This document shows positions 41,855 to 61,245 of a stretch of DNA of 64,000 nucleotides, one piece after another (the stretch's first letter is position 1; each line of letters begins with the position of its first letter). This DNA comes from Aestuariivirga litoralis (GTDB taxonomy: Bacteria; Pseudomonadota; Alphaproteobacteria; Rhizobiales; Aestuariivirgaceae): NCBI RefSeq assembly GCF_003234965.1, contig NZ_QKVK01000005.1, positions 62,001 through 126,000 on the forward strand, read 5' to 3'. The position numbers were made by a program, and so were the translations under genes. The notes beneath the pieces are model-generated. The model was not told where the DNA came from. It saw nothing but the letters and a program-made list of their open reading frames with translations, and did not search any database.

Positions 41855-41955
41855 CGGGAGGTTGGCGGCGGACGTGCCGCTCGCCAACCGGGTCAGGTCC
41901 GGAAGGAAGCAGCCCCAACGAGACCGGAACGGGTTGCCCGTCCAGCCTCCCACCC
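41855..41955 (+). ncRNA. ffs: signal recognition particle RNA (4.5S, small bacterial type)
   Basis: About 100 nt. The conserved apical SRP54-binding region GGTCAGGTCCGGAAGGAAGC plus AGCC is at 41891-41914. The closing stem pairs GGGAGG (41856-41861) with CCTCCC (41946-41951). With Ffh it targets nascent membrane proteins. Its place immediately upstream of dnaX is typical for Rhizobiales. Exact ends are estimated from pairing. Confidence 0.95.
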
Positions 41956-46548: not shown

Positions 46549-46664
46549 GGGTTGCCTCGAGACGTTGGAGTGGTGCGTTTCTTCTGTTGACCCTCCATAT
46601 GGCGATCAATTGTGAACAGATTGCAGCAATCGTGCTGCACTGCACACAGAGCCAGCCATGCAAT

Positions 46665-48247: not shown

Positions 48248-49441
48248 ATGACCGATGAGAAGCTTCTCGCCGCACTGACACCGCAGGCCCGCAACGAGCC
48301 CGACAGCGGCATCGTCAAGGCCGCCATGTATGGCTTCACCGTGCCCGGCATCATCCCGCTGTGGTCGGGCGAGGGCAACCAGCCCACGCCCGAGGCCTTC
48401 GCCAGGCCCGCCGCCGAGGCCCTGCTCAACGGCGAGACATTCTACACCTGGCAGCGCGGCATCCCCGAACTGCGCGACGCGCTGGCGCGCTATCACACGC
48501 GCAATTTCGGCCGCAGCTTCGAGCCTGAGAATTTCTTCGTCACCTCGGGCGGCATGCATGCGATCCAGACCATCGTGCAGATGATCACCAGCGATGGTGA
48601 CGAGATCGTTCTGCCCACGCCGGCCTGGCCCAATTATGCCGGCGCACTGCGCATCTCGGGTGCGAAACCCGTCGAGGTGCCAATGAACTTCGCCAATGGC
48701 AAATGGACGCTCGATCTCGACCGGCTGTTCGACGCGGTGACGGAGCGCACCCGCGCCATAGCACTCAATTCGCCGTCGAACCCCGTGGGATGGACGGCAA
48801 CGCGCGACGAGCTCGTCGCGGTGCGCGACTTCTGCCGCAGGCGCGGTATCTGGATCTTCGCCGACGAGGTCTATACCCGCTTCTATTATGGCGACAACGG
48901 CGAGACGCGCGCGCCCTCCTTCCTCGACATCTGCGAGGACGAGGAGCAGCTGCTGCTCGCCAACACCTTCTCCAAGAACTGGGCGATGACCGGCTGGCGC
49001 GTCGGCTGGCTGCAGGCGCCCAAGGCGCTGGGCCCGGCGATCGAGCGCATCGTGCAGGTGTCGTCCTCCGGCACGCCGGCTTTCCTGCAGCGCGGCTGCG
49101 TGGCGGCACTCGACCATGGCGACGCGTTCATCGAACGCCAGGTGCTGATGGCCCGCCACCGCCGCGACCTCACCGTGCTGATGCTGAAGGAATTGCCGGG
49201 GCTGCAGTTCGAGGTGCCGCAGGGTGCCTTCTACCTGTTCTTCGGCATCGACGGCATGACGGATTCGGCGGCCACCGTCCGCCGCCTGATCGACGAGGCC
49301 AAGGTCGGCTTCGCGCCGGGCAGCACCTTTGGCGCCGGCGGCGAGGGCCACCTCCGCATGTGCTACCTGAAGGACCTGGGGCCCCTCGAGGAGGCGCTGG
49401 GCCGCTTCGTCGACTGGATGCGCAGGCACGGGCCGGTCTGA
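48248..49441 (+). CDS. class I/II PLP-dependent aminotransferase
   Basis: 397-residue fold-type I aminotransferase. PLP contacts: TSGGMHAIQ (99-107), N178 in NSPSNPVGW, D206 in IFADEVYTRFYYG, K243 in NTFSKNWAMTGWRVGW; the substrate carboxylate Arg is in GHLRMCYL. It groups with aspartate-type enzymes of broad specificity; the amino acid used is not determined. The gene stands alone, directly after the mscL terminator. Confidence 0.92.
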   Translation: MTDEKLLAALTPQARNEPDSGIVKAAMYGFTVPGIIPLWSGEGNQPTPEAFARPAAEALLNGETFYTWQRGIPELRDALARYHTRNFGRSFEPENFFVTSGGMHAIQTIVQMITSDGDEIVLPTPAWPNYAGALRISGAKPVEVPMNFANGKWTLDLDRLFDAVTERTRAIALNSPSNPVGWTATRDELVAVRDFCRRRGIWIFADEVYTRFYYGDNGETRAPSFLDICEDEEQLLLANTFSKNWAMTGWRVGWLQAPKALGPAIERIVQVSSSGTPAFLQRGCVAALDHGDAFIERQVLMARHRRDLTVLMLKELPGLQFEVPQGAFYLFFGIDGMTDSAATVRRLIDEAKVGFAPGSTFGAGGEGHLRMCYLKDLGPLEEALGRFVDWMRRHGPV

Positions 49442-49582
49442 CCGTTTGCTGAAAAGACAGGCGCTGCACTGCACAATGAGGGGGCAGCCAGTGCGCGGGC
49501 TCGATATGGTTAAAGCATCTTTTACGACCTAAAATCTCATTATTACAAATATTTAGCCTGATATCCCCGGTGACGCCCGGTC

Positions 49583-49598
49583 TGGCACCGCCTTTGCA
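49583..49598 (+). promoter_or_regulatory. near-consensus sigma-54 (RpoN) promoter
   Basis: TGGCAC (49583-49588), five bases, then TTGCA (49594-49598). The invariant GG (49584-49585) and GC (49596-49597) are exactly ten bases apart, as in the -24/-12 consensus. It points to a start near 49609, just before the predicted small RNA. The upstream 49507-49560 is unusually AT-rich and could hold activator contacts; I could not identify an enhancer site. Confidence 0.68.
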
Positions 49599-49608
49599 AT
49601 GCACAAAG

Positions 49609-49730
49609 CGGCGCACACGTCTTTCTTGGGTCCTCCCATTCTCAAGCGAAGAGTACTCGGAGCGTCCCGGCCTTGGGCCGGCTCAGGGGTGAACGGTTGT
49701 TGGTTGCTGCCGTTCACCCCTCTTTTTTTG
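49609..49730 (+). ncRNA. candidate trans-acting small RNA, suhB/mmgR (alpha-r8)-like
   Basis: About 105-120 nt, no reading frame. Hairpin 1 (49620-49652) has the stem CTTGGG/CTCAAG and a 10-nt loop TCCTCCCATT, an anti-Shine-Dalgarno loop suited to pairing with ribosome binding sites. Hairpin 2 is CCGGCC-TTG-GGCCGG (49667-49681). Hairpin 3 is the terminator. This architecture, with a CCTCCC loop and strong terminator, is that of Rhizobiales small RNAs; from memory it most resembles suhB/mmgR, which is nitrogen-controlled in Sinorhizobium. The 5' end is inferred from the sigma-54 site. It fills most of the 431-bp gap 49442-49872. Confidence 0.65.
49685..49729 (+). terminator. strong rho-independent terminator of the small RNA
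   Basis: A perfect 12-bp stem, AGGGGTGAACGG (49685-49696) with CCGTTCACCCCT (49710-49721), a 13-nt loop, one C and seven T (49723-49729). It is 244 bp from the nearest upstream stop codon, so it is more likely to belong to an independent transcript than to the aminotransferase gene. Confidence 0.92.
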
Positions 49731-49872
49731 CCCGCGCGCGCTTGTGCGGCGGCGAAGCATCCCCACATGGTCATCAGACGGGTCCGGGCCCCTCTGGCAG
49801 CCACGCGGCTGCGATGTCGGACTCTTCCACCTTGAAGGCGCGTCTCGCGCCGCAATCTGGGAGATGAACGCA

Positions 49873-50244
49873 ATGACCAGCCCCTCGATCACCCTTGACC
49901 TCACGCCACAGGGCACCATGCAGCGGCTCGAATGGCTCGCCTGGTTTTCCGACTCGGCCCTGCGCATTCCCGGCACCTCGCGCAGCGTGGGTGCGGATGG
50001 CGTGCTGAGCCTCGTCCCCGGTGTTGGCACGCTCGTCGGCACCGGCATGTCGCTCTATGTCATCGGCGAGGCCGTTCGCCATGGCGTGCCGGCGCGCCTT
50101 CTCACCCGCATGGGCCTCAACATCGCGGCGGACACCGCACTCGGCGCCATTCCGGTGATCGGCTTTGTCTTCGACATGGCCTTCAAGGCCAATACGCGCA
50201 ACCTCAACCTGCTGCGGCAGCACCTCGCGGAGACTCATCGATGA
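49873..50244 (+). CDS. DUF4112 family protein
   Basis: 123 residues matching the DUF4112 pattern: LEWLAWFSDSALRIPGTSRSVGADGVLSLVPGVG, a hydrophobic hairpin, a second repeat-like IPVIGFVFDMAFKANTRNLNLL. It probably sits in or at the inner membrane through two glycine-rich hydrophobic hairpins. ATG 49873 is chosen because GGGAG lies nine bases upstream; the ATG at 49864 would touch that site. Function unknown. It overlaps the next gene by 4 nt. Confidence 0.85.
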   Translation: MTSPSITLDLTPQGTMQRLEWLAWFSDSALRIPGTSRSVGADGVLSLVPGVGTLVGTGMSLYVIGEAVRHGVPARLLTRMGLNIAADTALGAIPVIGFVFDMAFKANTRNLNLLRQHLAETHR

Positions 50245-60986: not shown

Positions 60987-61245
60987 GGGTCTATCTCCCG
61001 GAATCAAGAATGCGTTGCCTGCGCCGGAATGATGACGCTCGCCCCGCGCTGTGGAGACGCGGGATACGCTCGGATCAGACTGACGTTCGCCTTGGCTTGA
61101 TCGGGAATGTCCCAATCGCACATGGGGCAAGGATAGTGGTGCCTCTCAGTAACCCCGGCCTTTGGAGGAGCCGGCAGAGACCAAAAAGCCCGCACCGTCG
61201 TTGCTTTGGGGATGTCCTTGAGGCACGTGCGACTTTGGGCGAGCG
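60987..61245 (-). promoter_or_regulatory. structured leader of the decarboxylase gene, probable speF-type RNA element
   Basis: On the minus strand the 319-bp gap shows a possible promoter (TTGCAT at 61270-61275, CATATC at 61247-61252, 17-bp spacer) and then several stems: CCAAAGC facing GCTTTTTGG around 61180-61215; CTCTGCCGGC facing GCCGGGGTTACTGAGAG (61142-61182); GATTGGGA facing TCCCGATC (61101-61119). The speF RNA motif is described upstream of exactly this gene type in alphaproteobacteria, which is why I propose it. I could not run a covariance search. Confidence 0.5.
61004..61123 (-). CDS. candidate 39-residue upstream ORF in the decarboxylase leader
   Basis: ATG at 61123, TGA at 61004, ending 17 bp before the decarboxylase ATG. 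The product begins MCDWDIPDQAKANVSLIRAY and ends PASPQRGASVIIPAQATHS. No good ribosome binding site is seen (CCTTGCCCC before the ATG). Leader peptides control some polyamine genes (for example E. coli speFL), but the sequence is not related to one I know; it may simply be an open stretch within structured RNA. Confidence 0.28.
   Translation of the reverse strand: MCDWDIPDQAKANVSLIRAYPASPQRGASVIIPAQATHS

Follow-up and report, generated by a model that had tools for sequence, protein, structure and literature searches.

A small RNA family with a conserved sigma-54 promoter in one little-studied bacterial genus, and an upstream region that may balance nitrogen supply against carbon reserves

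A small RNA (sRNA) gene with its own promoter and terminator lies on the forward strand of the analysed DNA (the window, a stretch of 64,000 nucleotides), and its features are collected in Table 1. The 5' end of the RNA was placed from the usual start distance after the -12 GC of a sigma-54 promoter, and the 3' end from the terminator.

Table 1. Features read at the sRNA locus and in its upstream control region (window positions)
Feature	Positions	Strand	Basis and remarks
PhaR(AniA)-type core YGCRNYGCR, TGCACTGCA (putative)	49465..49473	+	118 bp upstream of -24 T; 25/31 homologues
NtrC-type TGC-N11-GCA (putative)	49470..49486	+	overlaps PhaR-type core; begins 113 bp upstream of -24 T
IHF-like site	49543..49555	+	40 bp upstream of -24; window copy has 2 departures from WATCAANNNNTTR
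Sigma-54 -24/-12 element TGGCACCGCCTTTGCA	49583..49598	+	exact match; kept in relatives
Small RNA, ~122 nt	49608..49729	+	fold; model R1 match 49607-49728, 123.6 bits
Hairpin 1, inner stem CUUGGG/CUCAAG, anti-Shine-Dalgarno loop UCCUCCCAUU (49631-49640)	49625..49646	+	fold, covariation
Hairpin 2, GC-rich, CCGGCC/GGCCGG	49667..49681	+	fold, alignment
Intrinsic terminator, 13-bp stem and seven T	49685..49729	+	fold; stem kept in 21 copies

The predicted fold of the RNA has an energy of −53.3 kcal/mol (z −3.4), and 0/200 shuffled sequences folded as low. The first-pass annotation had described, in order, a hairpin with an anti-Shine-Dalgarno (anti-SD) loop, a GC-rich second hairpin, and a 12-bp terminator with seven T. 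The anti-SD sequence was found to make up the entire 10-nt loop of hairpin 1 and is conserved in relatives; the second hairpin was found as well, in a region whose sequence and length differ among relatives. The terminator is present with a slightly longer stem, of 13 bp and 2 inner pairs (49685-49721), followed by seven T at 49723-49729; a simple terminator scan, which permits only loops of 3-8, reported none here. Covariation was assessed on 27 distinct rows. In the loop hairpin, 24 cells were changed on both sides compared with a shuffled mean of 8.2 (0/500 shuffles reached 24), and 87.0% of cells were paired compared with 77.6% in shuffles (0/500) and at most 69.8% in slid versions. Four of the 6 pairs were changed on both sides (2.4 in shuffles, 19/500 of which reached 4), and further pair types showed no excess (10, compared with 10.4 in shuffles). 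The features of an anti-SD trans-acting sRNA, an unpaired anti-SD seed and an own terminator, are thus present in the sequence, and the claim of a small RNA gene is supported by the fold, the terminator and the conservation in relatives.

It is highly improbable that no free RNA is made and that this stretch is the 3' end of an aminotransferase transcript or the leader of the next gene. An aminotransferase gene in the same orientation does immediately precede it, both in the window and, judged by eye, in the majority of the relatives read, but the RNA has its own promoter and terminator, and each tandem copy has its own sigma-54 element. The downstream neighbour also varies by eye, being DUF4112-like in the window, MarC-like and pointing towards the RNA in L002 and L011, and MttB-like and pointing towards the RNA in L010.

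Other RNAs were seen in the window. A terC RNA motif (RF03067, 54.3 bits, 49776-49829, forward strand) begins 47 bases after the last T and precedes a DUF4112-looking gene, not terC; similar sequence was recognised by eye in L003, L004, L006, L007, L008, and L009. Rfam additionally placed a speF leader adjoining an ar45 RNA at 61026-61240 (reverse strand) and a small SRP RNA at 41857-41953 (forward strand).

The exact GG-N10-GC sigma-54 element claimed in the first-pass annotation was found in its place, with 0 mismatches to TGGCACN5TTGCA, the GG at 49584-49585 and the GC at 49596-49597. It is one of 10 matches in the sigma-54 scan of the window, the remaining nine having 2 mismatches each. 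Across the 4.23-Mb genome, TGGCACN5TTGCW occurs at 4 sites (2 for the reversed control pattern), and the form scanned for among homologues, [TC]GG-N9-TGC, has a density of approximately 1.4 per kb and strand over an 800-kb sample. A sigma-70 promoter for the sRNA was rejected, as none was found by a scan of 49400-49900. The genome encodes RpoN (PF04552, 225 bits) and has 7 matches to sigma-54 activator domains, four of them strong; from neighbours, sequence and family features, we take these four to be NtrC, NtrX, a HupR-like regulator, and an orphan. With GG-N10-GC, the TGGCAC-N5-TTGCW pattern and RpoN all present, the element is classed by sequence as a sigma-54 promoter.

The locus was searched for by DNA in the genome of the window and 60 relatives (36 congeners and 24 others), and was found in 17/61 genomes, namely its own, 16/36 congeners and 0/24 others. 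The resulting alignments held 20 copies with promoter and 21 RNAs, the extra one being the second tandem copy in G017, whose loop reads differently (GUUCCUCCCUACC). When a covariance model was built from the RNA only, with no promoter, it matched 27/37 genomes of the genus (its own and 26/36). The same model matched 7/397 genomes in a sample of the order, all within the genus; since 13 of the 397 belong to the genus, 0/384 outside it match, although the filters of this search were stricter and missed the weak members G013 and G020, so that faint members outside the genus are possible. Ten of the matches in the genus search were weak (26-45 bits, none in the model), and that in G003 begins at a contig end. 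A scan for the sigma-54 element and loop pattern across 84,980 species, each represented by a single genome, returned 23 stretches, 21 of which are matched by model R1. The stretch in L083 is cut off, yet reads as a member; that in L086, from Verrucomicrobia, resembles a segment of a coding gene and was put down to chance.

Within the alignment of 20 copies with promoter, the TGG, TTGC, and TCCTCCCATT columns are invariant, and [TC]GG-N10-GC is present in 31/31 homologues with upstream DNA (from 32 copies, comprising 31 R1 matches and L083). L083 had been found via the promoter and the 21 training copies via DNA that includes it, so only nine are independent; these nine weak homologues with upstream DNA lie outside the training set and were found by the RNA-only model without promoter information, and 9/9 show TGG-N10-GC and the UCCUCCCAU loop. 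The first-pass annotation had staked its reading on the conservation of promoter and loop in relatives, and both are conserved. Tandem pairs of the RNA gene occur in L002, L003, L007, and L017, and in these the a-type copy, the one lying upstream, is equipped with a separate sigma-54 element yet lacks the PhaR-type box described below.

At its own thresholds, Rfam gave no match at the sRNA locus. A fold resembling suhB/mmgR had been claimed, and a search with the Rfam suhB and alpha-r models recommended, in the first-pass annotation; kinship was not supported, as neither suhB nor alpha-r is listed at E values up to 10 in 49400-49900 and the RF00519 gathering score of 41 bits is not reached there. 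A separate RF00519 copy lies elsewhere in the same genome (62.5 bits), and its upstream 300 bases contain a PhaR-type core and TGC-N11-GCA, with no sigma-54 element found by scan. Membership in AbcR/alpha-r15 was rejected for lack of an Rfam match at the locus, and membership in cuckoo/alpha-r14 because the RNA has one loop UCCUCCCAUU, not several hairpins with CCUCCUCCC, and likewise no Rfam match. In L022, a sub-threshold suhB-like match (1501-1575, 29.7 bits) with TTTCCTCCCA and a terminator-like sequence was seen directly 3' of an apparent MttB-like gene. By sequence, the gene, its promoter, loop and terminator, their conservation, and two upstream islands are present, and this is a genuine small RNA family, unmatched in Rfam, with a sigma-54 promoter, occurring in many species of one little-studied genus. 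No description of this RNA, or of a sigma-54 sRNA tied to PhaR, was recognised among the open-licence papers searched.

Upstream of the promoter, 25/31 homologues share an island, YGCRNYGCACA-N9-C, located 106-120 bp upstream of the -24 T (118 bp in 9, 117 in 9, 120 in 3, and 115, 116, 107, and 106 once each). The distance is therefore 117 or 118 bp in 18/25 boxes and 106 or 107 bp, about one helical turn less, in two; a near-fixed distance with a step of about one turn is as expected of an enhancer site. The box is absent from 6/31 promoters, these being the a-type tandem copies G001a, G018a, G035a, and G017a, together with G011 (a single copy, a-like in appearance) and G006. In a footprint over the 18 copies with a distance of 117 or 118 bp, islands stand out at the box, at approximately -40 and over -24/-12, and the intervening sequence carries little information. 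The island near -40 is IHF-like: a site with at most 1 mismatch to WATCAANNNNTTR, which we take to be the IHF consensus, lies 39-40 bp upstream of -24 in 16/25 box-bearing homologues, while 9/25, the window among them, have no site within 1 mismatch at that distance.

Two motifs overlap in the box and, in the window, have one TGC in common. One is a PhaR-type core, after the consensus YGCRNYGCR from S. meliloti (PMC12542648), and the other an NtrC-type TGC-N11-GCA (PMC10746234). The 9-bp PhaR-type core is kept in 25/25 boxes and the complete TGC-N11-GCA in only 10/25, window included; all 25 boxes have a C at offset 20 (counted from the box start), a position that the PhaR core does not cover. 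Both motifs are loose (802 occurrences of YGCRNYGCR, about once per kb, and 328 of TGC-N11-GCA in 800 kb), and it is placement and conservation, not presence, that carry the weight. The genome has a PhaR, and cores of the PhaR type precede each of its two phasin genes as well as its RF00519 RNA; TGC-N11-GCA, too, was seen in the scanned stretches ahead of this RNA and of one of the phasin genes. The glnK-amtB genes of this genome (locus L107) have a sigma-54 element with TGC-N11-GCA 120 bp upstream and a PhaR-type core, GCTGCAGCGCACAA, directly upstream of that element.

The box might serve an activator only (NtrC, NtrX, the HupR-like regulator, or the orphan), with the same sigma-54 sRNA and with the PhaR likeness a coincidence of two TGC-rich motifs. 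The near-fixed distance and the one-turn step suit an activator, PhaR-type cores occur as often as about once per kb, and the genome has four strong activator domains. We consider this rather unlikely, however, given a core kept in every box when the full NtrC-type site is kept in fewer than half of them, and given the same core before both phasin genes, as reported for phaP1 and phaP2 of S. meliloti (PMC12542648). The opposite assignment, in which PhaR alone occupies the box of the same sRNA gene as a distant regulator and the sigma-54 activator is bound elsewhere, would draw on the conservation of the core, the presence of such cores ahead of the phasin genes and of the RF00519 RNA, and the scarcity of the full NtrC-type site; it appears improbable, as the invariant C lies outside the PhaR core and near-fixed spacing over 100 bp would be unusual for a repressor site.

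Candidate targets were sought by complementarity to the loop. The 8-nt loop complement before an ATG, TGGGAGGA-N3-10-ATG, returned 28 rows representing 27 sites in the genome, compared with 2 for the reversed pattern. By eye, 16 of these were kept as plausible gene starts and 11 dropped as tiny, internal, or spurious-looking frames (L113, L114, L119, L120, L122, L126, L129, L131, L132, L136, and L137). Fifteen of the kept 16 have a Pfam match, and six are ABC substrate-binding proteins. In a ranking of 265 starts from 800 kb, which depends less on choice by eye, substrate-binding proteins made up 0/20 of the best-pairing starts and 1/20 of the controls (20 starts from the lower three quarters); 9/20 and 7/20, respectively, were without a Pfam match at 1e-8, which means that neither set is free of false or unknown genes. 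An ABC-transporter regulon, suggested by the one count and unsupported by the ranking, is therefore not claimed.

A longer complement, GGAGGACCCAA, pairs with the 5' stem arm and the loop together and is the more telling of the two. Four occurrences were counted on both strands of 864 kb (the sample plus the window), once as the RNA gene itself and three times directly before start codons, two of them within a single molybdenum-hydroxylase gene cluster and the third ahead of a 548-aa protein that has no family match. The first-pass annotation had proposed that the RNA would silence many mRNAs; this may or may not be so, as the 8-nt complement has 27 sites and long complementarity was found at few starts. 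CCCA follows GGGAGGA in 3/18 starts compared with 0/100 starts with five other SD words, though the numbers are small. Among congeners with the RNA, GGAGGACCCAA was found once before a start in 320 kb of three (in G001), and G018 has a copy ending in T at apparently the same gene. None was found in 80 kb of two other congeners with the RNA, in 140 kb of a congener without an RNA match or in 260 kb of two other genera (all small samples), and 0/5 GGGAGGA starts in three congeners with the RNA continue with CC. With at most 1 mismatch, GCTGCAYTGCACA occurs at 17 places in the genome, compared with 1 in the reversed control; of seven inspected besides the RNA's own, one lies before a phasin gene and several apparently inside genes (by eye). 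The only other exact GCTGCAYTGCACA in the genome lies at window 46634-46646, at the end of a peptidase gene and, by eye, near the start of a small minus-strand frame.

From these features we infer transcription, the binding of NtrC, PhaR, and IHF, the antagonism of the two regulators, and all targets. Expression of the sRNA is probably under the nitrogen-stress sigma factor, and the probable effect of the sRNA is to block translation of selected mRNAs. In the proposed mechanism, the gene encodes a trans-acting sRNA and is served by a sigma-54 promoter of its own. When nitrogen is limiting, phosphorylated NtrC would occupy the TGC-N11-GCA that begins 113 bp upstream of the -24 T, IHF would bend the DNA about 40 bp upstream of -24, and sigma-54 polymerase would start at approximately 49608-49610. 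Because the PhaR-type core shares its central TGC with the NtrC-type site, PhaR that is off PHB granules would block activation, and production of the sRNA would call for nitrogen shortage together with stored carbon. The 10-nt loop, with the 5' stem arm for some targets, would then pair with GGGAGGACCCAA-type ribosome binding sites and block translation.

A composite operator as the enhancer of a genus-specific sRNA is put forward as a possible, tentative form of this mechanism: NtrC and PhaR would compete for the same TGC, the promoter would act as an AND gate for nitrogen shortage and carbon stored as PHB, and translation would be shut off at genes with a GGGAGGACCCAA complement in their ribosome binding sites, with molybdenum hydroxylase genes and a sugar-binding protein as candidates. 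Both the NtrC-PhaR competition and the list of targets are offered as hypotheses. The layout of the control region suggests that nitrogen supply is balanced there against carbon stores, and the NtrC-type/PhaR-type overlap would tie nitrogen stress to PHB storage directly and in a testable way. If the mechanism is true, the same nitrogen and carbon inputs may be wired to two different RNAs in one genome.

Among known systems, the gammaproteobacterial CrcZ/CrcY and GlmY are likewise sRNAs made directly by sigma-54 polymerase, but they are other RNAs, and CrcZ/CrcY target Hfq/Crc instead of working by a single anti-SD loop. AbcR1/AbcR2 (alpha-r15) resemble the present RNA in having anti-SD motifs in unpaired regions and tandem genes, and perhaps in their ABC-transporter targets, which are suspected here from one count only. 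They differ in carrying two anti-SD motifs, where one loop and a sigma-54 promoter are found here. NfeR1 and the cuckoo RNAs (alpha-r14) share an anti-SD loop and an NtrC-type TGC-N11-GCA upstream; in NfeR1, however, CCUCCUCCC is carried by three hairpins and the promoter is of the sigma-70 type and repressed by NtrC (PMC10746234), and that NtrC can repress an sRNA gene counts against the NtrC-activation reading.

In its control region the gene resembles MmgR/suhB (alpha-r8); the RNA here is approximately 122 nt long compared with 77 and has no RF00519 match. Both have one anti-SD motif in the first loop. In S. meliloti, mmgR is reported to be turned up by NtrC and down by AniA, with RpoN among its predicted promoters (PMC7143759), and its promoter to contain a PhaR-type site (PMC12542648). 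The first-pass annotation had held that a sigma-54 promoter fits the nitrogen control of mmgR; the part of this that stands is the control region, whose putative PhaR-type box, NtrC-type site and sigma-54 element resemble the reported mmgR control, and the part that falls is the RNA itself, which is not suhB/mmgR. We give about even odds to the reading that sigma-54 polymerase makes this anti-SD sRNA when nitrogen is limiting and that PHB gates it by way of PhaR, in close likeness to the reported control of mmgR. An RNA family unmatched in Rfam would then have a promoter logic that is readable from sequence and that resembles the one reported for MmgR.
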